Positions 7,720-39,668 of a DNA stretch of 42,446 bases are shown here, one piece after another. The position numbers and the translations under genes are program-made. The stretch comes from a virus. Numbering within the stretch: position 1 is the stretch's first letter; each line of letters begins with the position of its first letter. Location of the stretch: the IMG/VR virus record IMGVR_UViG_3300020183_000165, positions 1 through 42,446 of that record; one strand, 5' to 3'. The notes beneath the pieces were generated by a model that saw only the letters and a program-made list of their open reading frames with translations, searched no databases and had not been told where the DNA came from.

Positions 7720-10700
7720 TTAACGGAACGCCAGGTAGAAGTAAGAAACCCCGGAGCTATTGACGCTTGCTCCGCTTTCCAACGTAAAGCCGTCGCTGTC
7801 AAAGGTGATGTAATCGGTAGCCTGCTCAACTGCAGTGGTGTTGGCAAAGAAGCGTCCATCACGGCCGCTGGTGAACATCACCCAGTCACTGGTACCGCCG
7901 CTGTAGGACTTCACCATCACGAAGCTTGGGGGGAATCCAAGATTTGTGATTGCTTGCGTGGCGCTGCCGTTACCGGTAAAGGTGCCAATCTTGCTCATGC
8001 CGGGAGATGACGCAAATGCCCAGCCGTAGGCCCACGATGCCGCTGACCTGTTGACTCCTGGGTGGCTACCGATGCCAATCGTTGTGGAGCTAAACGATCT
8101 AAAGGTGCTGCTGTCAGAGGTGGCCGCTGCTGTGCTGTTATGCTCCAAGTAGTTGTTGTCTCCAATGACACTGCCTCCCACGTAGGTGCTGGCGCTGTAG
8201 CCCAGCACAAACGCAAACACCAACTCTGGCGTGACACCGAGGCCGTGGCCAATGGTGGTGTTTGAGCCGTTGGGGTCAAACTTGAACTGCGAGAACTTCA
8301 ACCCACTATTGACGCTAACTGTTGTGGCAAGGCTTCCGTCGGTGTTGGAAGTTGCAGCGGCACCCTCTTTCAAGCACAACGCCCAGTAGTTGACCGTATT
8401 GCTGTTGCTTGTTGAGCTTTTCCATGTAAATCCATCACTGTCGAAAGTCAGCCACTGGGCGCCATTTGAGTTGGAGCCAGAGCTGCTAATCGTCAAACCG
8501 TAGTAAGTATCATCGACGGCAATGGGGTTGGTAATGCGGTGATACAGCACATGCTGATCGGCACTGCCCGAAATCCGCTTGCTCCAAACCAGACCCGGCT
8601 TAAAGCCAACACCAGTAATGGCGTTCGTGCTTGTGCCATTACCGGTGTAGGTCAGGATCTTGACGTTGGGGGACACGTAGACCAGCGACGCACTTTGACC
8701 GCTTGCCGTCAGGGTGGCGACGCCAGCCGTAAGTACAAACGATTGCAACTTGCTGGCGCTCTGGCCGGTGAGTGCAAAGCTGCCTGCTGCCGCTAAAAGG
8801 TTGATGCCAACCCGTGTTTCGGAGGCTTGGCCGCTCAGCACAATGCTGCCGGCTGCGGCATTGAGCGGGCTGTAGCTGCGCGTTAGCAGGGCCGCTTGGC
8901 CGCCAAGGGCGAACGTCCCTGCATTGGTGCCGATGCCGTAGGTGCGCACGCTGCCTGCACCAAGACCAGTGGCGGCAAAGCTGCCTGCAGCACCGACAAG
9001 CTTGCGGATGTAGTTGCCGCCGGCGGCCTGCCCTGCCAGCACATAGCTAACAGCATCGGCCGTAAGCTTGCCGCCCACCAATACCTTGCTCTTGGTTGCT
9101 ACCACTTGGCTTTCGGTGCCACGGTTTAGTTGGTACGGGTATTCGACTAGCACCACCCTGCTGCGGCTGATTCCTTCGACCGCCAAGTTTTCCAAGTACG
9201 GCGGCAGCACCGTCGCCGGTGTAATTACTGCAGCAAACGCAGCGCCGGTCTCGGGGTCAACAGAACCTCCAGTGGGCGTATAGGGCAGCGGCAGGCTGGT
9301 GGTGCCCGGTGCCAACGGCACCCAGCTGCTGGCCAAGTTGGTGCCACTTGATGCACTCACCGCACCCCAGAGCAGAGCATCTGTAGAAGCAACGATGCCG
9401 CTGGCATCAAATGCCCAGCTGGTGCCATTCACCCGGTAACTGCCAGTGATGCCTTCTGCCTGCAGGTACAGCGGATCAAAGGGGCGTTTGGGCAGTTGCT
9501 CCGGTGCCAACTGCAAGCTCACCCCATTGCGGTTGCCCAAAAGCAATGCGTTCTGCACCCGCCCGTAGCGCATCGCCTTTTGATTGGCATCACTGGGTGT
9601 GCTGCTGAACGCGCCAGTGCTCTGATTCCAGCTGATCGCATCATCGGGGGCATAGGGCAGCGTGAACTCAGTGACGGCGGTGCTGGTGGGGCTGCCGGTG
9701 ATCCAAGTGATCTCTGCCTTGGATTCGCTGATCTGCGGCTTGCTGTTGGCTGTGTTGTTGCGGTCAGCCTCGCTCGGGCGCTTCTGCAGCCCGTATTCCC
9801 GTTGCGTGTGCAGGCTCGTCTCTGCGCCGACATACACCTGACGCCGAGCTAAGCCCAGCAGCGAGCTGATGCTGTTACTGAGGTTGGCCGTGTCTAGCTC
9901 CTGCGCACGGGTGGCTAGATCCTGCTGACCAGAAACCGTCTGCGAGCGTGACACCGAGCGCTTGGTGATCGTCTTGGAAGTGCCGGAGCTGCTATCGGTC
10001 TCGTATTCCACAATCACGGTGGAATCCAGCTCTGCGGCGATGGTGTCGAAGCTAACCAGTGAGCCAGCGTCACTGATGTAGCTGTCGATGTTGAGGCTGC
10101 CGGCCAGCTCCAGCTCGGAAAAGTAGTTGTAGGTGGTCTGCGACTTGACCACATCAGCGCCGTCTGGCACCTCTTCCTTGCAAAGGTTGGCTAGACCGCT
10201 ATGCGCTTCTGCAGCGCTGCTGAGCTGCGCTTTTACATAATCAGGGCCGACCCCGACCCCCTGCACGGAGGACAGGAGGTTGACGTTATTGGCAGCCGCC
10301 GCGCCCTTCACGTATTCGATGACTTCATGCACCAGGCGGGCGGTCGGAACATTCCAGGGCCGAGCCTTGCGGAACGCATCACTGGCCCAGCGGTTGTTGA
10401 TCTCCGCTGAAGAGACCAGATTTAGCGAGATTGACTCAATCTTGCGGTCCCACACGTCGTAGCGGGTGGCCGTGAAGCTGTAGGGGTAGAAAACGTCGTT
10501 GTCTATTTGCGTGGTGCCATTGTTGTCGGTGTAGCTGACGCTCACATCAGTCGGTGCGCCAAAAACTTCCTCAATCTCCCAGCTGCGCTCAAGGTACGCA
10601 TCGCCGTAAAGCTGATCCGGTGGCAGCAACCGCAGATTGCTCCAACGCACTACCACGCTTTCACCTGGCAGATCACCACTGCCAATCGGGCCAAGGTCCA

Positions 10701-24781: not shown

Positions 24782-25135
24782 ATGATCAGCACAAATCGCA
24801 CCGAAACCGAGACCCGTTATTTCACCGGCGCCTCTGGCACCGAGCCTCGCGTCGATTTTGAAACCCGCCACGTCTTCAGCGGTTCTGGCCGCTTGTCGGT
24901 TTGTCGTGGTGCAATCGAGTTTGGCGACCGTTACGGCGCAGACAATCGCCAGACCGTGACTCTTTGGTTTGATGGTGATGAAGTGGCTTCCGCTGTGGTG
25001 GATTGGCTGGCCGCGTTGCATAACGGCGCCATCAATGAAGCCAATGCGAACAGCCGCGAAACCTGCCGCGAAACTCTGGCCCGGTTTGCCGGTGCAATGG
25101 GTCTCGATTATTTGGCAGAACTGCCGGCCGCCTGA
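24782..25135 (+). CDS. Accessory protein, 117 aa, unknown
   Basis: ATG at 24782, behind a leader that reads CCCCGTTACCCCTACCCCTT. The protein (MISTNRTETETRYFTGASGT) looks like a mixed alpha/beta domain: SGRLSVCRGAIEFGDRYG, TVTLWFDGDEVASAVVDWLA, and a helical end. It stands directly before ardA. No known family recognised. Confidence 0.6.
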   Translation: MISTNRTETETRYFTGASGTEPRVDFETRHVFSGSGRLSVCRGAIEFGDRYGADNRQTVTLWFDGDEVASAVVDWLAALHNGAINEANANSRETCRETLARFAGAMGLDYLAELPAA

Positions 25136-25166
25136 TCAATTCCGTTACTTCTACTCCCTACCTGCC

Positions 25167-25751
25167 ATGCAAACTCAAACCCTGCCCGTGGGCTACGTGA
25201 CCGCCGGTGTGCCCAATGTCGGCGCCTACTTCGCTTGCCTTGCTTCGTACAACTCTGGCACCCTGCACGGCTGCTGGGTTGATCTCAGCCCAATGGGTGC
25301 CACTACGGCCGACGAGATCAACGATTGCATCGCGGCCATGCTGGCCAGCTCATCCGAACCCGGAGCCGAAGAGTGGGCCATGCACGACTCGTCAGGTTTA
25401 CCTTCCTTTCTTGCTGGCAACGAGTGGCCAGACCTTGCGACCCTTGCCGAGTTTGCTGAGACCCTTTCAGAACTGCACGCCGACGAAGAGGCCCCCTACC
25501 TGATGGTGTGCAACGACTGCGGCGCAGTGGTGAGCGCTGACACGTTCCGCGATGCCTTTTGCGGCGTTTTCGATTCCCCAGAGACTTACGCGGAAGAACT
25601 GGCGGAAGATTTGGGCATCGATTTCAGCAAGTGCGATTGGCCTCTGCGCCACATCGACTGGGCCTCAGCTTGGCGTGAACTGAAGTGCGACGGCTACCAC
25701 GCCGAATACAGCAGCGAGGCCGGCGGCTATGTGATCACCCGCCCCGTTTGA
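25167..25751 (+). CDS. ardA: ArdA antirestriction protein
   Basis: I chose ATG at 25167, giving 194 aa, because the family starts there and a C/T-rich leader precedes it. The motif YFACLASYNSGTLHGCWVDL (residues about 20-39) is the hallmark of ArdA, followed by EEWAMHDSSGLPSFL and a helical AEFAETLSELHADEE region, then FRDAFCGVFDSPETYAEELA and the C-terminal IDWASAWRELKCDGYH. The protein is strongly acidic, as expected for a DNA mimic that occupies type I restriction enzymes. It is somewhat longer than typical members (about 165-170 aa). The insert around residues 115-128 contains CNDCG, which is not part of the common core. Confidence 0.88.
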   Translation: MQTQTLPVGYVTAGVPNVGAYFACLASYNSGTLHGCWVDLSPMGATTADEINDCIAAMLASSSEPGAEEWAMHDSSGLPSFLAGNEWPDLATLAEFAETLSELHADEEAPYLMVCNDCGAVVSADTFRDAFCGVFDSPETYAEELAEDLGIDFSKCDWPLRHIDWASAWRELKCDGYHAEYSSEAGGYVITRPV

Positions 25752-27284: not shown

Positions 27285-27632
27285 TGAATGCGATTTTTGG
27301 CCATGAATGGCCTAATGAATGGCGTTTTGAGGCCCCTTGAATGGCATTTCGTGTCTCATGAGTCTCACCCAATCCTGCAGTAACGCCCCTATCTCCTTGA
27401 ATGGCCTACCCCAACGTGGGGGTGCTGGTGATGCTGTAGGCCAGCGCCATTGCATCCCCCAGGCTGCTGGCCCATAACACCCCAACAGTCCCCGCTAGCA
27501 GCACTTTGTACTCGCCGTTAGGGGTGCGGTAAATCGAGGCCATCAATCCCCCTTGAATGGCGTTTGCAGCCTCTATGAATGGCTCCATGAATGGCCTTTT
27601 GAATGTTGGTGGTGAGTAACCCCTTGAATGGC
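27285..27632 (+). repeat. TGAATGGC direct repeats
   Basis: Eight perfect TGAATGGC units in one orientation: 27304, 27316, 27338, 27398, 27554, 27576, 27588 and 27625. Degenerate copies lie at 27285 and 27600, and an extra perfect copy at 28950. Many are preceded by CCCCT, so on the minus strand they read GCCATTCAAGGGG. Repeats also lie inside the end of the 48-aa gene and upstream of the 45-aa gene. They may be protein binding sites, an origin element, or mobile repeat units. Confidence 0.75.
27406..27543 (-). CDS. Small hypothetical protein, 45 aa
   Basis: I chose ATG at 27543, since AAGGGGGA precedes it at 5-12 nt. The longer frame to 27588 would run through repeat sequence. The product, MASIYRTPNGEYKVLLAGTV, looks like a short beta domain with an Ala-rich helix. 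The ribosome binding site is itself made by the TGAATGGC repeat read in reverse. Function unknown. Confidence 0.5.
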   Translation of the reverse strand: MASIYRTPNGEYKVLLAGTVGVLWASSLGDAMALAYSITSTPTLG

Positions 27633-28896: not shown

Positions 28897-28979
28897 CGCT
28901 TTTAGCGGTAGGTGGGTTTAGTAACGCAGTTGAGGGAGCCCTACATGCCTGAATGGCTCTGAGAGGCTCCCCTGAGGGC

Positions 28980-29588
28980 CTAGAAGGGCATCTTGGTGGG
29001 GTCACCGCCTGTCAGGAGGGCCTCCAGGTTGTAGCCCTCTGCAACGCACTCTTCCCACGCTGCGTTGACCTGAGCAGCGACGGTGCCTTTGCGTTTACCA
29101 GGCTTCAACACCACCGTATAGCGGGTGTCCATCCCGGTGCCGGTGCGGTTCAGCTCAAAATCCCAACCAGATGGATCACTGGCCACGTCCTCGTCACTGA
29201 AGAGGGCAGCAAGGGTGTCGAGGATCGACACTTGGCTGGCTTGAAACAACTGAACGCTGTTGGTGGTGTAGTTCCACACCCAGAAGGCCAACGCTTGCTT
29301 GAGGCGGGTGGGCTGACCCTTCTGGTCAATCAGTTGGACACCCTCATCGGCTGCGCGGTCGTTGAGTTCTTTGGTGGTGGGCTCCTCAGAGAAGCGCAGA
29401 CACTTGGGGCGACCTTCAGAGCTGCGACCCCAGATCTCGTAGAAGTCGAGGGACTTGTCGCCTACAGGGGAGAAGCGAACGCTGTCCCCATCACTGAGGG
29501 AACCGGGATTTAGAAAGAGGTCGGTGCCACCAGAAGAGGACTTCTTCTCTTTGATGGCGGTGACGAAGCGATCAGAAACGAAAGGCAT
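28980..29588 (-). CDS. Single-stranded DNA-binding protein candidate, 202 aa
   Basis: ATG at 29588. The start MPFVSDRFVTAIKEKKSSSG and the segment FLNPGSLSDGDSVRFSPVGD, then DFYEIWGRSSEGRPKCLRFS, resemble the gp32/T7 gp2.5-like ssDNA-binding proteins found in cyanophages with family A polymerases. A long AEFGYNL-type tail (EGYNLEALLTGGDPTKMPF) closes it. An acidic C-terminus typical of SSBs is not evident, so the call is moderate. The gene follows a regulated promoter and is followed by the nuclease cluster. Confidence 0.6.
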   Translation of the reverse strand: MPFVSDRFVTAIKEKKSSSGGTDLFLNPGSLSDGDSVRFSPVGDKSLDFYEIWGRSSEGRPKCLRFSEEPTTKELNDRAADEGVQLIDQKGQPTRLKQALAFWVWNYTTNSVQLFQASQVSILDTLAALFSDEDVASDPSGWDFELNRTGTGMDTRYTVVLKPGKRKGTVAAQVNAAWEECVAEGYNLEALLTGGDPTKMPF

Positions 29589-29622
29589 GTCGGTGGGCTG
29601 CGCCGTTGACCTACCTAGCCTA

Positions 29623-29645
29623 CTGAGTTACTTAGGTAAGTCAAC
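29623..29645 (-). promoter_or_regulatory. Promoter with CTTAGGTAAG operator for the minus-strand operon
   Basis: TTGACT at 29640-29645 (minus strand) lies in a GGGGTTGAC context also seen at the 36948 promoter. CTTAGGTAAG (29631-29640) fits the operator consensus and lies directly between the -35 box and the start region of the ssDNA-binding gene. A good -10 box is not obvious (TAGGCT after 16 bp). Confidence 0.5.
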
Positions 29646-29886
29646 CCCTTGAGGTGGTGGGCATCAGGTCGCTGAGCAACCCTGTCCGTAGGTGCAGCAC
29701 ATCTAGCTGGCTAACGCTGCGGGCCATCACCTCAAACAGCTCACTCCGGTTCACTCCTGCTTTCATCGCAGCAGCGGTCCAGAGTTCCCATGCCTCGTCG
29801 GTGATGCTGATGGTGCGCTGCACCTTGCTAGACCCCCACGGTGTGTGAGGGGTGCGACCTCCCATGGGGCGTGACAATGCGGGCAT
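29641..29886 (-). CDS. Ribbon-helix-helix DNA-binding protein
   Basis: ATG at 29886, 81 aa. A basic N-terminal arm leads to VQRTISITDEAWELW (beta strand then helix A) and NRSELFEVMARSVSQL (helix B), the ribbon-helix-helix order. An alternative ATG lies seven codons in. Exact operators CTTACCTAAG (29901-29910, 14 nt upstream of the start) and CTTAGGTAAG (29631-29640) flank the gene on both sides. It is therefore a candidate for the regulator of the whole CTTANNTAAG set. DNA target not shown. Confidence 0.7.
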   Translation of the reverse strand: MPALSRPMGGRTPHTPWGSSKVQRTISITDEAWELWTAAAMKAGVNRSELFEVMARSVSQLDVLHLRTGLLSDLMPTTSRG

Positions 29887-29898
29887 CTCTGCGGTGCT

Positions 29899-29929
29899 GA
29901 CTTACCTAAGTCTAACGCAAATACCTAAG
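29899..29929. promoter_or_regulatory. Operator pair upstream of the RHH gene
   Basis: GACTTACCTAAGTC (29899-29912) is an inverted repeat with 6-bp arms and 2-bp centre, containing the exact CTTACCTAAG. A second weaker site, ATACCTAAG, lies at 29921-29929. The first is 13 nt from the RHH start, so it could allow autoregulation. Confidence 0.6.
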
Positions 29930-29933
29930 ACAG

Positions 29934-30602
29934 TTACTCGGCCTTGGTGAGGATGTGAAGGTGTTCTTGGATCACGTCCCAGCACTCCCCCTCCTCCACA
30001 CCCAGCTCTGCTGCAATTACAGGCAGATCCTTCACCAGCTGCTCCCCCTTCACCGTCTTCCCCGATAGCAGCCCCTTAAAGCTGTCCGCAGCCTTTACTA
30101 ACCGCTGGTGGGCCTCCACCACAAAATCAACCCCCCTGCCAGCGAGGGTGAGCCTCACCCACTTCCCAAACATCGCAGAGACGCTCTCCTCATGCTCCAA
30201 GGGGATCTCCTTGGCATTGCTCAACCCCAGGTCCAGAGCCCCCACAAAGGCCAAGAACATCTCCGCAGGGCCCATCACACCACCACTGGGTGTGCGCATC
30301 ACCTCACGGTCCTTCCAGTGGCCACTGAGGGTCTCTGGTAGCTCCCCGTTGGCCAGAGCCTCATTAAACACACCAAGGGCGTACAGAACCTTTGGGGCTG
30401 GATCCTTGAGGGTGCCCGTGGCAAAGCCGCTGATCTGACTTGAATGGATCACGTTGTCCTTGAGGGCAGCCGTAGCCAGCTTCATGAACTGAGGCTGACT
30501 CCACTGCCGGGAGAAAGCCTTGAAAGCTTTGCGGAACTGCTCACGCCCCTGAAGGCAGCTGGTGGTGATCGGCCCTGGGGGGAACTGGCTTGGCTTACCC
30601 AT
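29934..30602 (-). CDS. HTH-like regulator candidate, 222 aa
   Basis: I chose ATG at 30602 (MGKPSQFPPGPITTSCLQGR). A start at 30653 would add residues that look like a shadow of the operator region. Residues about 25-85 (REQFRKAFKAFSRQWSQPQF, then HSSQISGFATGTLKDPAPKV) fit an XRE-type HTH with an extended turn. The rest is a helical domain without a known motif. The operator variant CTTACGTAAC sits 4 nt upstream of the ATG. Repressor function is an inference. It also borders the iteron cluster, so a replication role cannot be excluded. Confidence 0.6.
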   Translation of the reverse strand: MGKPSQFPPGPITTSCLQGREQFRKAFKAFSRQWSQPQFMKLATAALKDNVIHSSQISGFATGTLKDPAPKVLYALGVFNEALANGELPETLSGHWKDREVMRTPSGGVMGPAEMFLAFVGALDLGLSNAKEIPLEHEESVSAMFGKWVRLTLAGRGVDFVVEAHQRLVKAADSFKGLLSGKTVKGEQLVKDLPVIAAELGVEEGECWDVIQEHLHILTKAE

Positions 30603-30606
30603 GATA

Positions 30607-30624
30607 CTTACGTAACTACCTAAG
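30607..30624. promoter_or_regulatory. Two operator half-matches at the HTH gene start
   Basis: CTTACGTAAC (30607-30616) and ACTACCTAAG (30615-30624) overlap by two bases, giving 1 and 2 differences from CTTANNTAAG. The first lies 4 nt upstream of the ATG at 30602. Such tandem weak sites are usual for cooperative binding. Confidence 0.5.
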
Positions 30625-30715
30625 TCATAGCACTCGTAGAGAGTGGCCGTCACTCAGGTAGGGGATCAGCTTCACTGAGTTGCTTGGACTTGTGAGACTC
30701 AAGGCTGACAAGCCA

Positions 30716-30992
30716 ACTGTCGAACAACTGTCGAACAACTGTCGAAACCCTTTCGACAGTTACTTTTATAGTCATACCAAGGGTTTTAACCCTCTAAAAC
30801 CTCCAACTGTCGAACTGTCGAACACTTTCAATTCCTTGTCTCATATCTGTCTCACTTCTCTCACCCTCCAAAACCCTCTTTTCAAAAACCTTTCGACAGT
30901 TCGACAGTTGCCCCACTCCCCCTCCCCCGCAGGGGATCCAACTGTCGAAACAACTGTCGAACAACTGTCGAAGTCCAATTTTTTTCGACAGT
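30716..30992. other. Iteron cluster, candidate replication origin
   Basis: Twelve copies of ACTGTCGA in 277 bp: forward at 30716, 30727, 30738, 30806, 30814, 30941, 30953 and 30964, and reverse at 30753, 30893, 30901 and 30985. Forward copies are often 11 bp apart, so they lie on the same helix face. Two AT-rich stretches, with an AGGGTTTTAACCCT hairpin, sit between. The primase-helicase gene starts its 3' end just beyond. Initiator protein is unknown. Confidence 0.75.
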
Positions 30993-31003
30993 TGCTCAAC
31001 CCC

Positions 31004-33376
31004 CTACACAGGCAGCTCCCACCACACCTGATCCACCCTTGGGCTCTTCAGCAAACGCCCTAAACCGTAGTCCCCAACTAGCTTCTGCAACATCCCCTTC
31101 GCCTCTTCACCGTTCTCCGCCCACTTCCTCCTCACCAAGTCGCGGGCTGTTACCTGCTGATTCTCACGTGTCTTAGCCAGCTCCACTACCTTCACCACCC
31201 ACCCCGGTAGCTCACCACCTCCCACCTGGGGGGCTAACACGTCGAACTGGTTCAAGAAAAACTGACACAGCACCGTCGCCCGCTCCATCACCTCCCGACT
31301 GATTGGCCCCCGATCTCCAATCGTCCTCATCTCATGCCCCGCACATACGTGATCTAACGCCCACAGCAACCCCGCTGCCCTCGCCAAATACCCGTGCAGC
31401 TTCATCAAAAACGCACTCCTGCTCGCATATGTGTTCTCCGCTTCCTCCGTAAACCTGTTAGCCGTCTGCTCAAACACCTCCCACGCCCCGTCACTCAAAT
31501 CCACTACCACCGTCTGCTGGGGTGCCATCGCATCCAATAAATCCACCAGCTCCAACAGCTCCTGATTGATTTCCACACCATCCCGCATCACCCTCGGTTT
31601 CACGTAAGGCGGTGAGACCCATAAGAATCGACTCCAGAATCCATCACCACTCCTCGCTGTCGCGTCATCCCCGTGCAGCAGGTCCGTCAACTTGTCCTGC
31701 TGAATCGCTCCAAATAACGACACCGCTGTCTTGGCGATCCGTATCGGCTCACTTCCCTTTCGCAGGATGTTGATGGCACCCCCACTCCACATCGACAACC
31801 ACGCCGCTCTGTCACTCGCATTGCGCCGGTACTTATCCATCGAACCAATGAACCCGCTCAGCTCGTCGTGGAAGCTCACAACCCCAGGCACGTCCTCGCG
31901 GTTCAACAGCGAACACAACGCCTCCAACGTCGCGTCCATTACTACCCGCTGCCGGGGGTAATTCGGTGGTGCTTTGTCCCCAGGACCTGCCTTCCACTCC
32001 CGCAGCTGCTCCCGATACGTCTCGTACTCAGCGCGATCTCGTTGCTCTAAAGGCCATAAAAACTGGTTGGCCACTGGCGTCTTCTTGCTACCCGCAGGCG
32101 CCACAGTCCCCATCCAGAAGATGCAGGGCTCCTTCCAACCCTTCGCTACCTGTACCCAATACCGCTTACCCAACACCGAGGCCAGTGTCGTCATAAACGG
32201 TGCTAACAAAGCGTTCTCCGACACAGGAAATGCTTTCGCTCGATCTACCAACAGATCGGCTAGCTGCTTCGGAAAGACGCTGCTCAAAGTAAAGGCTGCT
32301 GCACGGGCTTCTGCCCACTGCCAGTAACTCCGCTGACGGAGTTCCTTCACCAGTGGGTCATTCTCATTCTCGGACTCCTTTGACCGAACTTCACGCTCAA
32401 GTGGCCATGGGCACACCCAACCCTTCCGCTGCGCCTCCCGAAACAAGTGCCAAATCGTCTTGCGCTGCTCTGGTGCATCCACCAACGACATCGCAACCCT
32501 CTTCAACTCCCAGTGCTGTTGGCCCCAACCCGCTGCCTTCGCCAGCTCAGCAGCAACGTCTGGGCCAAACTCATGCACCATCGCCGCTAATACATCCCGC
32601 GCTGCCTCATACGTCCCACTTCCTGGTGCCTCACGCTCAGGGCAGAACCGCAGCGCCTCCTGCACCACCTGCCTCTTCTCTACCGCCGTCATCCGTTCGT
32701 AGTGCTTGCCCCGCTGCGCATGTGGCAAGTCCTCATCGCTTGGCTCAGTGCGCAGCACACTCTCCGCTGGCCGCACTAGCGCCATTAACTGCGGCAGCTC
32801 AAACCGCTCACCCGTGGTGCTCATCACCCGCGACTGCTCACCCGTCTTCGGATGCACCCCGCCTGCAAGTCTGAGCACTTGGCAAGGCTTACTCAGTGAG
32901 GTGTCTACCTTTACCCCCTCAAGGAACCTCTCAACGTGCTTGAACAGCATTTTCTGCGCTGCCGTGAACGCAGTCGTGCTGCAGGGCGCCCGCAGAAACC
33001 AGTAATTATGCACTGACTTACCACCAGTCCACAGCTGAAGCGATGGCCTCGGCAGACCGCAAACCTCCCACTGCGACAGCTTTTCCTCCAAGGGCGCTGG
33101 CCCGTCGTCCTCGTAGAACAGCGCCCGGCAAAACTTAATGTCGTCGTTCTTGGTGCCTCCTGGGTTCAGCAGGAATCCCAGTGACAGGTCAGCGTTGTGA
33201 ACCATCGCCGCCTCCACCGCTGATCGCGCATCCTCGGGCAAAGCCCCGACCGTGTTGACGTGGATGCAGGTGCCCCTCTCCTTAGGGAACAGCGCCAGAA
33301 TCACCGGCTCGTCAGGCTTGATACCAGAAAGAAACAGGTGGTCCTGCGCCTGCAGCCAGTCGATCATCGGGGGCAC
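31004..33376 (-). CDS. Primase-polymerase/helicase fusion (AEP + DUF3987-like)
   Basis: GTG at 33376 (790 aa), or ATG three codons in. Residues 80-160 show the archaeo-eukaryotic primase pattern: FYEDD (Glu89/Asp91), SVH (residues 121-123) and later D158 in VKVDTSLSKP. The C-terminal half is a DUF3987-type helicase domain: degenerate Walker A in GTVAPAGSKKTP (residues about 423-434), then VVSFHDELSGF near 500 as Walker B, and the conserved WSRFLWVSPP later. It should unwind and prime at the origin. Host-free replication fits with the phage-encoded polymerase. Confidence 0.75.
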   Translation of the reverse strand: MPPMIDWLQAQDHLFLSGIKPDEPVILALFPKERGTCIHVNTVGALPEDARSAVEAAMVHNADLSLGFLLNPGGTKNDDIKFCRALFYEDDGPAPLEEKLSQWEVCGLPRPSLQLWTGGKSVHNYWFLRAPCSTTAFTAAQKMLFKHVERFLEGVKVDTSLSKPCQVLRLAGGVHPKTGEQSRVMSTTGERFELPQLMALVRPAESVLRTEPSDEDLPHAQRGKHYERMTAVEKRQVVQEALRFCPEREAPGSGTYEAARDVLAAMVHEFGPDVAAELAKAAGWGQQHWELKRVAMSLVDAPEQRKTIWHLFREAQRKGWVCPWPLEREVRSKESENENDPLVKELRQRSYWQWAEARAAAFTLSSVFPKQLADLLVDRAKAFPVSENALLAPFMTTLASVLGKRYWVQVAKGWKEPCIFWMGTVAPAGSKKTPVANQFLWPLEQRDRAEYETYREQLREWKAGPGDKAPPNYPRQRVVMDATLEALCSLLNREDVPGVVSFHDELSGFIGSMDKYRRNASDRAAWLSMWSGGAINILRKGSEPIRIAKTAVSLFGAIQQDKLTDLLHGDDATARSGDGFWSRFLWVSPPYVKPRVMRDGVEINQELLELVDLLDAMAPQQTVVVDLSDGAWEVFEQTANRFTEEAENTYASRSAFLMKLHGYLARAAGLLWALDHVCAGHEMRTIGDRGPISREVMERATVLCQFFLNQFDVLAPQVGGGELPGWVVKVVELAKTRENQQVTARDLVRRKWAENGEEAKGMLQKLVGDYGLGRLLKSPRVDQVWWELPV

Positions 33377-33472
33377 CCTCGGAACTTCAACCTAGATAAG
33401 GTGGCCACCCTCGGCGCCACAATCAAGGATTCCAGCCCGTCGCTTTGCGACCTAAGGTGAGACCCTTACTCA

Positions 33473-33482
33473 GTTACTTAAC
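33473..33482. promoter_or_regulatory. Operator variant GTTACTTAAC
   Basis: It lies directly next to the ATG at 33483 and differs from CTTANNTAAG in the two outer bases. Upstream CCTTACTCAG may be another half site. It sits in the 106-bp divergent region between primase-helicase and the 105-aa gene. Confidence 0.45.
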
Positions 33483-33800
33483 ATGATGACCCGCGACCGC
33501 TACGAATCCGAGGCGCAGGAGTTCTTTCGGCGTAACCCCCATGTCTATGACGCCTTCAGGCTGCTCGCTTACAAGGCCATTGCTGCTGGTAAAACACGCT
33601 GCTCGCAGCGTCTGCTTTGGGAGCGACTGCGCTGGGAGCTTTACATCAGCAGCGATGCCAACGTGGCGGATTACGCCCTAAACAACAACTTCGTGCGCTT
33701 CGCCGCCAAGCAGCTTGAGGCTGAGGGCGAGCTGCCAAGTGGGTTTTTTCAGTTCCGCGAGCGCCATCACCTGCTGGATTCGGTTGACCTGGGGGCGTAA
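33483..33800 (+). CDS. Conserved phage protein, 105 aa
   Basis: ATG at 33483 or 33486. The pattern EAQEFFRRNPHVYDAFRLLA, then AGKTRCSQRLLWERLRWEL, FVRFAAKQLEAEGELPSG and FRERHHLLDSVDLGA recurs in phage and prophage replication regions as an unnamed family. Length fits. It is basic and could bind DNA. Possible leaderless start with the operator directly before it. Confidence 0.55.
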   Translation: MMTRDRYESEAQEFFRRNPHVYDAFRLLAYKAIAAGKTRCSQRLLWERLRWELYISSDANVADYALNNNFVRFAAKQLEAEGELPSGFFQFRERHHLLDSVDLGA

Positions 33801-34461: not shown

Positions 34462-34628
34462 AAACCCTCAAACCCTCATCACCGCGCACTTATCGCGTCA
34501 CTACTTCCCTGAGATCTTTTGTTGTGATGGCCAGCAGCGTGGCTGCAGCCATATTGACCGCCAAAGAGTTGTACCCAGCTGAGACCGTCATCTCAGTCCT
34601 TAATTCGCCCGAGTGGCTGGATGATTGA
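34458..34628 (+). CDS. Small protein with hydrophobic helix, 56 aa
   Basis: ATG at 34458 overlaps the preceding stop (ATGA), and its TGA overlaps the polymerase ATG (TGATG). MKTLKPSSPRTYRVTTSLRS, then FVVMASSVAAAILTAKELYP (hydrophobic segment) and an acidic tail ending PEWLDD. Tight coupling on both sides argues that it is real. Confidence 0.6.
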   Translation: MKTLKPSSPRTYRVTTSLRSFVVMASSVAAAILTAKELYPAETVISVLNSPEWLDD

Positions 34629-36436
34629 TGGCACTCCTGGAATCTTTCAAGGAGCTGGGCAAAACAATTTGCTTGGACATGGAGACCGCCATGGCTCCAA
34701 TGTCATTCAAGGGCAGAGAGCATGTGCGCCTTCTGCAGCTTCTCTCTGATGAAGGTGAGCTTTGGTACGACCTAGCCACCTTCACTGAGCCCGATTGGAT
34801 GGAGCTGACGGTGCTGCTCCAAGACCCCACTATTACTTGGGTTGGCCAGAACATCGCCTACGACTACCGATGCCTCCTTGGTTGCGGCATCCGTCTTGTG
34901 GGTCGGTTGGAAGACACCATGATCCAGTCGGCCTTGCTGAACAACGGGCTGCCCAACGTCTCCAACTCCCTTGAGGCCATTGCGCTGAGGGTGCTCAAGA
35001 TTCAACTCGATAAGACTCTGCAGAAGCAGGACTGGATGAGTGCCGAGCTGAACGAGGCCGACCTCGCCTACGCCATGGGTGACGTTCGCATCACATGGCA
35101 GGCGTGGCGTCAGCAGCAAGCTGAGATTAAGAACGCTGGCCTGCAGCGCGTCTACGACTTGGAGTGCACTCTCATCCCCGCCGTTGTGGAGATGGAGCAC
35201 ACCGGCATGTTGGTGGATCAGCAGCACGCCCTCACAGCCATCGCACAGCTAGAAGAGGAGATTTGCCTTAGCAAAGGCGAGTTCCTGGAGCTGCTCGATT
35301 CCCAACTGCGGGAACTTCACGGCGATGGCCTACCCCGTGATGACGACGGCAGCTACAACCTTCGTGCAAAAAAGGAACTTAAACGGGAAGGTGGCAGACC
35401 TGCGGGTTTCAACATCAACAGTCCTACGCAGGTGCTAGGTCATCTGGTCTCCATCGGTCTAGACCCGCGAGATCCCAAAACAAACAAGCTCACTACCGAC
35501 AAAAAAATTCTCAGGCCCCTGGCCGACAACCCAGTAGTGTTCAGCCTCTTGGCCTACAAGCGAGCCGAGAAGCGACGCTCAATGATTCAAACTATCTTGG
35601 ACAAACACATCCAAGATGATGGGCGGATTCATCCCCGATTTGCACCTTTGCAAACTGGTACAGGTAGGTTCAGTAGTTCAAATCCTAATGCACAGCAGTT
35701 TCCTCGTGAAGCATTTATTAGGGACATTATTGTTGCTGCACATGCGTATGAACTGGTGGTGATGGATGTTAAAAACATGGAGATGGGTGTGGCGTGTTCG
35801 GAACCCATCGCCAATGAGTCAATCATGCAGAGCGCTTTGCGTGATCAGACTGACCTACACACCCTCACCGGCCACCTGATCTTTCACATCCCCATGGAGG
35901 AAGTGGGTAAAGAGCAGCGTCAGCGGGCCAAGAGTTGCAACTTTGGTTTGCTCTACGGCTCAGGTGCCCTTGGCCTCAAGGAATACTTCGCCAGCTTCGG
36001 CAACTTCATCACTGAAGACGAAGCTAAAGAGTTCCGTAACGCTTGGCTGAACGCTTACCCCGGCATGGCCAAATGGCACGCCTGGGCTAAGCGGGAAGTT
36101 GAGGGTGGTGAGGTGCGGATGGTTGATGGCCGCCGTAGGTGGCTAGTGGACGACATGGCCCGCCACACCGTCTTGCTCAACAACATCGTCCAAGGCACCG
36201 CCGCTTCCATTGTCAAACAAGCCATGGTTGGGATCTGGTCGCGTTTACCTAACGGAGCACGGCTTGTCGCTCAGATCCATGACGAATTGATCGTTGAAGC
36301 ACCTGAGGGCGCTGGTGAAGAGGTGCTTGAAATCATGCAACGCCAGCTTCTTCTTGCTGGGCGACTGATCATTGGCGACTCCGTTGACATGGTTGGCGAG
36401 GGCTCCGTGGCGAAGTCATGGGGTCAAGCCAAATAG
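34628..36436 (+). CDS. polA: Family A DNA polymerase with 3'-5' exonuclease domain
   Basis: ATG at 34628, 602 aa; no 5' nuclease domain. Exonuclease residues: D17-x-E19 in CLDMETA, N75...D79 in GQNIAYDY, and Y148...D152 in YAMGDV. Polymerase: motif A is DVKNME (Asp380, Glu385) in place of the usual DYSQIE; motif B gives R431-x-R-A-K435-SCNF439GLLY443; motif C is H551-D-E553 in QIHDEL. F at 439 fits discrimination against dideoxynucleotides. Replicates the phage genome together with the AEP-helicase. The motif A change is discussed as a finding. Confidence 0.92.
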   Translation: MALLESFKELGKTICLDMETAMAPMSFKGREHVRLLQLLSDEGELWYDLATFTEPDWMELTVLLQDPTITWVGQNIAYDYRCLLGCGIRLVGRLEDTMIQSALLNNGLPNVSNSLEAIALRVLKIQLDKTLQKQDWMSAELNEADLAYAMGDVRITWQAWRQQQAEIKNAGLQRVYDLECTLIPAVVEMEHTGMLVDQQHALTAIAQLEEEICLSKGEFLELLDSQLRELHGDGLPRDDDGSYNLRAKKELKREGGRPAGFNINSPTQVLGHLVSIGLDPRDPKTNKLTTDKKILRPLADNPVVFSLLAYKRAEKRRSMIQTILDKHIQDDGRIHPRFAPLQTGTGRFSSSNPNAQQFPREAFIRDIIVAAHAYELVVMDVKNMEMGVACSEPIANESIMQSALRDQTDLHTLTGHLIFHIPMEEVGKEQRQRAKSCNFGLLYGSGALGLKEYFASFGNFITEDEAKEFRNAWLNAYPGMAKWHAWAKREVEGGEVRMVDGRRRWLVDDMARHTVLLNNIVQGTAASIVKQAMVGIWSRLPNGARLVAQIHDELIVEAPEGAGEEVLEIMQRQLLLAGRLIIGDSVDMVGEGSVAKSWGQAK

Positions 36437-38469: not shown

Positions 38470-38803
38470 AACCTGGGAGGACAAGGCCCTCGCTGCGTTC
38501 TGGGCGCCGGAGTTTAAGGACGAAACTTTGGAGTCCCACGCCCGTATCCGTGCGGCTGTCTCGGCAGCAACTTGTTTTCTCATTCACACCTACACCGACA
38601 CTTACTCCGGCAATGGCTCGACGGGAAACCAAAAACAGCGCGATGGACGCTTACATGGAGAACATCGCAAAGATCCCGCTAATGACAGCCCAGGAGGAGA
38701 TCCTTCTGGGCAAGTTGGTGCGGCGAATGATGGCTCTAAAACAGCTAGATCGGGAACTAACCCGCAAGGAAAAGAGAGAGGTGTTAATGGGAGAGCGAGC
38801 TAA
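38453..38803 (+). CDS. Overlapping small gene upstream of the sigma factor
   Basis: ATG at 38453 follows AAAGGTGGGG, a good ribosome binding site. The first 60 residues (MPQRPETWEDKALAAFWAPE, then FKDETLESHARIRAAVSAAT) look protein-like. The rest, past the sigma ATG at 38613, is Gly/Asn/Asp-rich and reads like a shadow of the sigma gene's other frame. Either a real long overlap of 191 bp, or a frameshift or shorter gene. Function unknown. Confidence 0.45.
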   Translation: MPQRPETWEDKALAAFWAPEFKDETLESHARIRAAVSAATCFLIHTYTDTYSGNGSTGNQKQRDGRLHGEHRKDPANDSPGGDPSGQVGAANDGSKTARSGTNPQGKERGVNGRAS

Positions 38804-39668
38804 GGCTCGCTTTGTCCAAGCCAACCTCCGCCTTGTCGTCTACATCGTCAAGCGCAACCTCCGCAGAAGCTTTTTTCTTGACAGCTTAGATCTAATTCAA
38901 GAATGTACCATCGGACTGATCCGTGCTGTCGAGATGTTTGATCCTCAGCGCGGCTACAAGTTTTCAACCTACGCTTACTGGTGGTGTCGCCAAGCAATCA
39001 GCCGCACCTACACCGCCCAGGAGCGTGCAATCCGCAGGCCCGTCTCCGTTGGAGATATGGCTGCCAAGGTCGAGAAAATCTGCAGCGCTGAGACTGAGCG
39101 ACTTGGCCGTAGCCCAACCTTGGATGAGTTGTCTCTGGCTTCCAACGTAAAACGCAGCGAGCTTGAGCTGCTCTCTACGCGAGGATTCTATTGCCTTTCG
39201 CTCGATGCGCTTGCGGCTGGTGAGGACTCAAGCAGCCTGTTGGAACTTATCGCTGACGACCGCAACCTGTCTGGCGATGAGCTATTTGACGCCATGGACC
39301 TGAGCTTGGATGTTGAGCGGATGCTTGGCCTGCTACACCGCCTTAGCGAACAAGAACGTCGGTTGGTGGTACGCCGTTATGGGTTAGACGGGCAGGCTTC
39401 AGCGACCCTTGCTGACCTAGGCAAAGAGCTTGGTGTTACCCGTGAACGTGCAAGACAGCTCACTGCAGCGGCGCTGGTGAAACTTCGTCTTTACATGAGC
39501 GGTCAACAAGAAAAGAAGAAGGTGGAAAAAGTCGAACCACCTGTCGTAGCACCCAAGGCATCCCCGAAATCACGCAAACGCCCTTCTTGCAAGCCCCATC
39601 AGATTGACTCTGTGGTGCTTGAGGAGGCGATAAAAGCGCGGTCATTTCCAGCTCTGCAATCCGCTTAG
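38613..39668 (+). CDS. Full-length sigma-70 family factor
   Basis: ATG at 38613, 351 aa. Region 1.2-like start (MDAYMENIAKIPLMTAQEEI), region 2 with ARFVQANLRLVVYIVKRNLR, DLIQECTIGLIRAVEMFDPQ and YKFSTYAYWWCRQAISR (residues 62-131), region 3 around 150-215, and region 4 with RLSEQERRLVVRRYGLDGQ and the HTH TLADLGKELGVTRERARQLT (about 243-290). This is the pattern of cyanobacterial group 1/2 sigma factors. A 55-residue basic C-terminal tail is extra. It should redirect host RNA polymerase to phage promoters. Placed next to integrase, it might act in induction or early control. Confidence 0.88.
   Translation: MARRETKNSAMDAYMENIAKIPLMTAQEEILLGKLVRRMMALKQLDRELTRKEKREVLMGERAKARFVQANLRLVVYIVKRNLRRSFFLDSLDLIQECTIGLIRAVEMFDPQRGYKFSTYAYWWCRQAISRTYTAQERAIRRPVSVGDMAAKVEKICSAETERLGRSPTLDELSLASNVKRSELELLSTRGFYCLSLDALAAGEDSSSLLELIADDRNLSGDELFDAMDLSLDVERMLGLLHRLSEQERRLVVRRYGLDGQASATLADLGKELGVTRERARQLTAAALVKLRLYMSGQQEKKKVEKVEPPVVAPKASPKSRKRPSCKPHQIDSVVLEEAIKARSFPALQSA

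Follow-up and report, generated by a model that had tools for sequence, protein, structure and literature searches.

The window analysed here, a stretch of viral DNA of 42,446 nt, contains a dense cluster of short repeats between a primase-helicase gene and a gene for a protein of helix-turn-helix (HTH)-like appearance. The cluster raises the question of whether it is a replication origin and, if so, which of the two neighbouring proteins reads it.

Twelve perfect iterons lie directly downstream of a replicase gene

The 8-mer ACTGTCGA occurred 14 times in the window, and 12 of these copies were clustered at 30716-30992. Eight were on the plus strand (30716, 30727, 30738, 30806, 30814, 30941, 30953, and 30964) and four on the minus strand (30753, 30893, 30901, and 30985), as the original prediction had stated. 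The other two copies (8437 and 40539) were solitary and did not carry the flanking bases of the array type. Shuffles of the whole window contained 0.9 copies on average and 4 at most. The densest 8-mer per 400 bp reached 12 copies in the array, compared with 3-4 at most in 20 shuffles. All 12 clustered copies extended to the perfect 10-mer AACTGTCGAA, which is the true repeat unit and was preceded by C in most cases.

30715..30993, both strands: iteron array of 12 perfect AACTGTCGAA copies, from word counts and shuffles
30715+, 30726+, 30737+, 30752-, 30805+, 30813+: starts of the first six 10-mers
30892-, 30900-, 30940+, 30952+, 30963+, 30984-: starts of the last six 10-mers
30823..30891: 69-bp central gap between inverted doublets, purine-rich on the replicase-sense (minus) strand, 41% GC

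The array was situated downstream of the replicase gene P0002 and upstream of the HTH-like gene P0001, both on the minus strand, with the first iteron 10 bp past the P0002 stop codon; its predicted location between these genes was thus confirmed. Spacings of 11 or 12 bp occurred four times, in line with the claim that several copies lie 11 bp apart, and 8-bp spacings occurred twice. The gaps had also been described as AT-rich, which was partly correct: the array had 47% GC in a genome of 57%, and one inter-iteron gap was G-rich. Read in the replicase sense and counted from the stop codon, the sites were located at 11>, 32<, 43<, 55<, 95>, 103>, 182<, 190<, 243>, 258<, 269<, and 280<. Two outer groups with the pattern '> <<<' and steps of 11-12 bp therefore enclosed two inverted doublets (8-bp steps) that faced each other over the central gap. 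As far as layout alone goes, two inverted iteron sets flanking a gap of this composition are what an origin of this kind requires, and the gap may be the region that is opened. Predicted DNA folding of the array had a z of -8, mainly caused by the inverted iterons, and was therefore set aside as evidence. GC skew showed no simple switch at the array, a point against an origin there, and a strong skew was found within the replicase cassette itself.

31004..33376, minus strand: replicase P0002, 790 aa, proposed initiator, from domain searches
31007..31207, minus strand: codons for the final 67 residues of P0002, a putative DNA-binding winged helix and proposed iteron reader, from weak structural similarity and covariation
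29934..30653, minus strand: HTH-like protein P0001, encoded downstream of the array; relatives conserve the ATG at 30602 as start codon

P0002 comprised an S-2L-PrimPol-like AEP domain (residues 68-199), a DUF3987 helicase (~470-712), and a putative C-terminal winged helix. Its AEP domain proved to be a homologue of 6zp9, the S-2L PrimPol domain of known structure (E 1.9e-21), and DUF3987 has been predicted to be a helicase (PMC5862659). A VirE-type C-terminal helicase as in S-2L was not found in P0002, the helicase being DUF3987. The cyanobacterial initiators CyRepA and CyRepX have domains other than those of P0002: CyRepA is defined by DUF3854 and DEXDc (PMC10079941), and in the Pfam searches DUF3987 was the sole domain identified in P0002. 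Neither P0001 nor P0002 contained the Pfam families Rep_3 or RepA_N, so that neither is a classical iteron-plasmid initiator. P0001 had no family match in the domain searches and is HTH-like by appearance. Genes for an SSB-like protein, an exonuclease, a family A DNA polymerase (34625-36436), and an integrase were also found near the array.

The array and the replicase are exchanged as one cassette

A search with P0001 identified three related viral contigs (L004-L006, with genomes G001-G003), which at the same place carried a different replicase (Prim-Pol + AAA_25 helicase) and different iterons. No significant similarity was detected between P0002 and P0009, the Prim-Pol + AAA_25-type replicase of these relatives. 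In the nucleotide alignment, G003 was 89% identical to the window at 28979-30698, showed no similarity at 30699-33754, and was 86% identical from 33755; G001 gave the same pattern with edges at 30701 and 33741. Across these two relatives the flanks were 85-89% identical to the left of the cassette and 80-86% to the right, and G002 was more distant. The cassette edge lay ~15 bp beyond the outermost iteron.

30699..33754: swapped cassette of array, replicase and the region upstream of the replicase, dissimilar in nucleotide sequence to G001/G003

An unrelated replicase together with unrelated iterons between conserved flanks indicates that the array is transferred jointly with the replicase, in a single cassette. 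The exchange also bears on the choice between the two binders named by the original prediction, the HTH-like protein and the primase-helicase. P0001 adjoins the array and looks HTH-like, as would be expected if it bound the iterons and acted as initiator. However, it lies outside the swapped cassette, and in the two closer relatives its identity remains at 86-90% despite their completely different iterons; the array therefore accompanies the replicase rather than P0001. Moreover, the stretches examined around loci L046 and L051 yielded no homologue of P0001, although arrays of the same type occur there. These comparisons argue against P0001 as the iteron binder, and we rejected it, its chance of being the initiator being practically nil. 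The other named candidate fared better, since the array was exchanged jointly with the primase-helicase and the motif tracks the C-terminus of the latter (see below). The accompanying statement that no known initiator was obvious is therefore superseded: P0002 itself is most likely the initiator.

Iteron sequence covaries with the C-terminus of the replicase

Among 27 dereplicated loci, iteron similarity was compared with the similarity of different replicase parts, giving correlations of 0.50 for the last 95 residues, 0.40 for the N-terminal 42%, and 0.33 for the helicase part, a covariation between motif and C-terminus that is partly phylogenetic. The partial rank correlation in these 27 loci was 0.43 for the C-terminus given the N-terminus but only 0.06 for the helicase given the C-terminus. 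Within helicase classes it was 0.47 for the C-terminus given the helicase and 0.13 for the N-terminus given the C-terminus, and relabelling within these classes reached the observed C-terminus values in 0 of 1000 trials. Two natural experiments point the same way. The primase of S-LBS1 is of the Prim-Pol type and related to P0009, while its C-terminus and iteron (AGGTTAGGCAG versus AGGTTGGACAG) resemble those of S-2L-type replicases such as L098 (AGGTTGGACA). Among AAA_25-type replicases, the recognition helix reads HRGSVERVVK in L005, L006, and L034, which also have the iteron word AACCAACA in common; L004 and L036 differ from them in both. The iterons of L004 and L005 differ, while their primase parts are very similar (0.77).

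In an AlphaFold model, the C-terminus of P0009 formed a clear winged helix (pLDDT 82), in which HRGSVERVVK is predicted to fall within helix 2 of the helix-turn-helix. The model of the P0002 C-terminus contained three helices at pLDDT 66-82 (59 overall) and no wing, and its MarR-like fold matches were weak, all with E > 1; it thus points weakly to a winged helix. Profile comparison detected no homology between the C-terminal domains of P0002 and P0009. Judging from these sequence comparisons, the putative winged-helix domain at the C-terminus of P0002 most likely recognizes the iterons, and C-terminal domain and iteron apparently co-evolve. For another PrimPol, origin recognition through a C-terminal winged helix has been put forward as a speculation (PMC5862659), and the covariation, as a sequence-based argument, is evidence for this idea in the present replicase family.

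A second element, CCCTTGGTATGAC, was detected inside the array.

30771..30783, minus strand: CCCTTGGTATGAC, unique in the window when up to 2 mismatches are allowed

The element was exact in the arrays of the window and of L006 (G003), though the L006 replicase is unrelated, and both G003 copies (0 and 1 mismatch) fell inside the array. It was found with 1 mismatch in L049 and L004, 2 in L046 and L050, and 3 in L005 and L034, whereas the best match in control stretches of the same loci never had fewer than 3 mismatches. The arrays of L048, L051, and L036 contained no good match. In L050, the element as read from the sequence is able to form a hairpin (CCCTTGCTACGACAAGGG). CCCTTGGTATGAC may be a hairpin at which the primase starts or a site for a host factor.

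Similar arrays are found at the ends of related replicase genes

To find related loci, a profile of the AEP domain was needed, because a direct search of viral contigs with P0002 gave no close relatives; with this profile 80 viral and 43 genome loci were found, and polA as bait gave few additional ones. When a cluster was defined as five or more copies of one 8-mer per 400 bp, 54 of the 80 usable viral loci, which include the window and its relatives, had one, located at the replicase 3' end in 48 cases and elsewhere in 6; the remaining 26 had no such cluster. In the genome collection, 26 loci, nearly all cyanobacterial, had an ORF of at least 900 aa, and in 17 of them the array lay inside the last 30% of the ORF. 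Plasmid examples agreed with an iteron array at the end of the replicase gene. In these cyanobacterial AEP replicase genes, iterons in the coding tail were translated as repetitive stretches (L130, L133, L140, L148, L157, L161, L162, L164, and others).

The iterons of the closest relatives of P0002 were AACTGTTAG (L049), AACYGCTG (L050), AACCCGTGA (L046 and L051), and AAAGGTGAA (L048). Sites flanking the largest gap were inverted in 25 of 28 arrays, the other 3 breaking the rule, in a set of loci that are not independent of each other; the median largest gap in these arrays was 98.5 bp. In L051, extra tandem repeats CTTACGCAGCTAAGCCCCTTGGCA occupied the ~250 bp that follow the stop codon of the replicase (from position 8287), displacing the iteron array ~380 bp from the stop.

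Other roles of the array

The array could be an origin in which the iterons serve as single-stranded templates where the PrimPol domain starts primers, rather than as duplex sites for the C-terminus. P0002 has an AEP domain, NrS-1 PrimPol starts at TTTGGTTA (PMC8718748), and CCPol-MP primes within SCCmec iterons (PMC7581432). This explanation fits less well because the motif follows the C-terminus and not the N-terminal primase half, as the similar primases and different iterons of L004 and L005 illustrate, and the sites occupy both strands in an ordered inverted layout; we give it a small chance. That the array is an operator instead of an origin, through which the replicase or another factor regulates transcription of P0001 and further downstream genes, would suit its position on the promoter side of P0001. 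Autoregulation is also common among initiators. Nevertheless, the array follows the replicase gene in all these loci, persists in L046 and L051 without a following P0001 homologue, and lies inside the rep gene in cyanobacterial plasmids, and twelve ordered sites round a central gap are more than a simple operator needs, so that a purely regulatory role is hardly likely.

A further candidate for the true origin, leaving the ACTGTCGA array with some other role, was a repeat array at 27301-27632. This is a second strong cluster (~8 copies of GCCATTCA) in a non-coding stretch and is conserved in G003. It remained unchanged when the replicase was replaced, whereas the ACTGTCGA array changed with it; its repeats all point in one direction, and no such array was found beside the replicases of other families. 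We therefore regard it as a very improbable origin; it is possibly a partition, regulatory, or packaging site.

Proposed mode of action and comparison with known systems

In our judgement it is highly probable that the AACTGTCGAA array is the origin and that P0002 binds it via its C-terminal domain, opens and primes it after loading, and is exchanged with it as a cassette. The sequences themselves show the array and where it lies, the exchange of the cassette, the coupling of the motif to the C-terminus, and the inverted geometry; the molecular steps that follow are inferred. The original prediction of a likely replication origin has good comparative support, short of proof, and replication may be of the theta type, for which that prediction took such iterons to be typical. 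The C-terminal domain of P0002 would bind the iterons just downstream of its own gene, and the protein would assemble on the two oppositely oriented iteron groups and open the ~70-bp purine-rich stretch that separates them. It would then load there as helicase and prime the first strands, presumably in both directions, after which synthesis would pass to the DNA polymerase of the phage (34625-36436) and its SSB-like protein. As the binder adjoins its binding site, the pair can be exchanged between phages as one cassette.

P0002 and its array would work like the SaPI Rep-ori and the P4 alpha protein, a likeness of working and not family membership. In satellite phage P4, the alpha protein with ori/crr is a single polypeptide that acts as primase and helicase and also binds the origin, as proposed for P0002. 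P4 alpha differs from P0002 in its primase-helicase pairing, and its second site (crr) lies apart from ori. SaPI Rep is a helicase initiator whose C-terminal domain recognizes multiple short iterons directly downstream of its own gene, according to PMC7581432, citing Ubeda 2007. P0002 is likewise a helicase-type protein with an iteron array directly downstream and proposed C-terminal recognition. Unlike SaPI Rep, it has a PrimPol primase fused in front and a DUF3987 helicase, and belongs to a cyanophage-like virus in which the iteron varies among relatives with the C-terminal domain. In SCCmec, the helicase Cch2 binds direct repeats downstream of the operon and CCPol-MP provides a priming function in the same system, but the primase is a separate protein pair and there are only three short iterons (PMC7581432).

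The AEP domain of S-2L PrimPol is homologous to that of P0002, whereas its helicase part is VirE/SF3-like (PMC8065100). No 8-mer cluster of at least 5 exact copies followed the S-2L PrimPol gene, only degenerate GGCACAG-like words. S-LBS1 carried 11 exact copies of AGGTTAGG directly after the primase-polymerase gene, as the array follows P0002, although its primase is Prim-Pol-like. The relevant passages of the S-2L and S-LBS1 papers do not describe repeats. The DUF3987 proteins of Calothrix sp. PCC 7716 Cal7716_p5 and Anabaena sp. 90 pANA03 combine AEP and DUF3987 like P0002, and in such cyanobacterial plasmid genes the array comes just after the part encoding helicase and C-terminal domain; unlike in the window, it lies within the 3' coding tail of the gene.

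From these sequence comparisons, the array is very probably a real, functional origin and a variant of the known arrangement of an initiator helicase with an adjacent iteron origin. What sets it apart is that unrelated replicases replace one another as cassettes and that the iteron apparently co-evolves with the C-terminal domain. A wider reading, held tentatively and at less than an even chance, is that this is a portable single-protein replicon common to cyanophage-like viruses and cyanobacterial plasmids. One polypeptide would recognize, open, and prime an origin at the end of its own gene, and origin specificity would be re-coded by joint change of the C-terminal winged helix and the iterons. 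The inverted layout, the ~100-bp gap, and in several cases CCCTTGGTATGAC, perhaps a priming hairpin, would be kept, CCCTTGGTATGAC even across unrelated replicases. Among the open-access papers searched, none combined DUF3987, replication, and iterons; subscription journals may hold earlier descriptions.

The comparison yields dozens of predicted origins with probable binding proteins, and DUF3987 genes that had been anonymous become initiator candidates open to testing. Because the recognition words differ among these natural replicase/origin pairs, an origin-recognition code could be probed by domain swaps, and the pairs could serve as orthogonal replicons for cyanobacteria. A binder and site that travel together would also explain the wholesale exchange of a phage replication module.

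Additional repeats and genes

Most GCCATTCA copies in the array at 27301-27632 extended to GCCATTCA[A/T]GG, all on the minus strand and round a small ORF; this array was also present in G003, though the replicase there differs. The candidate motif TGAGNCTCA had 3 copies versus 0.8 expected. ACTGTCGA triplets in viral contigs L007-L011 were rejected as belonging to a different system; in the stretches read, they are mostly coding-sequence repeats. TGAGAC/GTCTCA half-sites and the palindrome TGAGTCTCA occurred at several non-coding places, among them the proposed origin core and the left cassette edge. Across the whole window TGAGAC was not enriched, and these sites could be operators of a regulator.

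27353-27367, 30693-30701, 30838-30854, 33458, 34580, 36910: TGAGAC/GTCTCA half-sites and TGAGTCTCA

Judged from the relatives of P0002, the host is probably a cyanobacterium. The window also encodes a putative anti-restriction protein (phrog_2059; 24969-25751) and a sigma-70-type factor (38550-39668) with Pfam regions 1.2, 2, and 4, plus region 3 below the cut-off.
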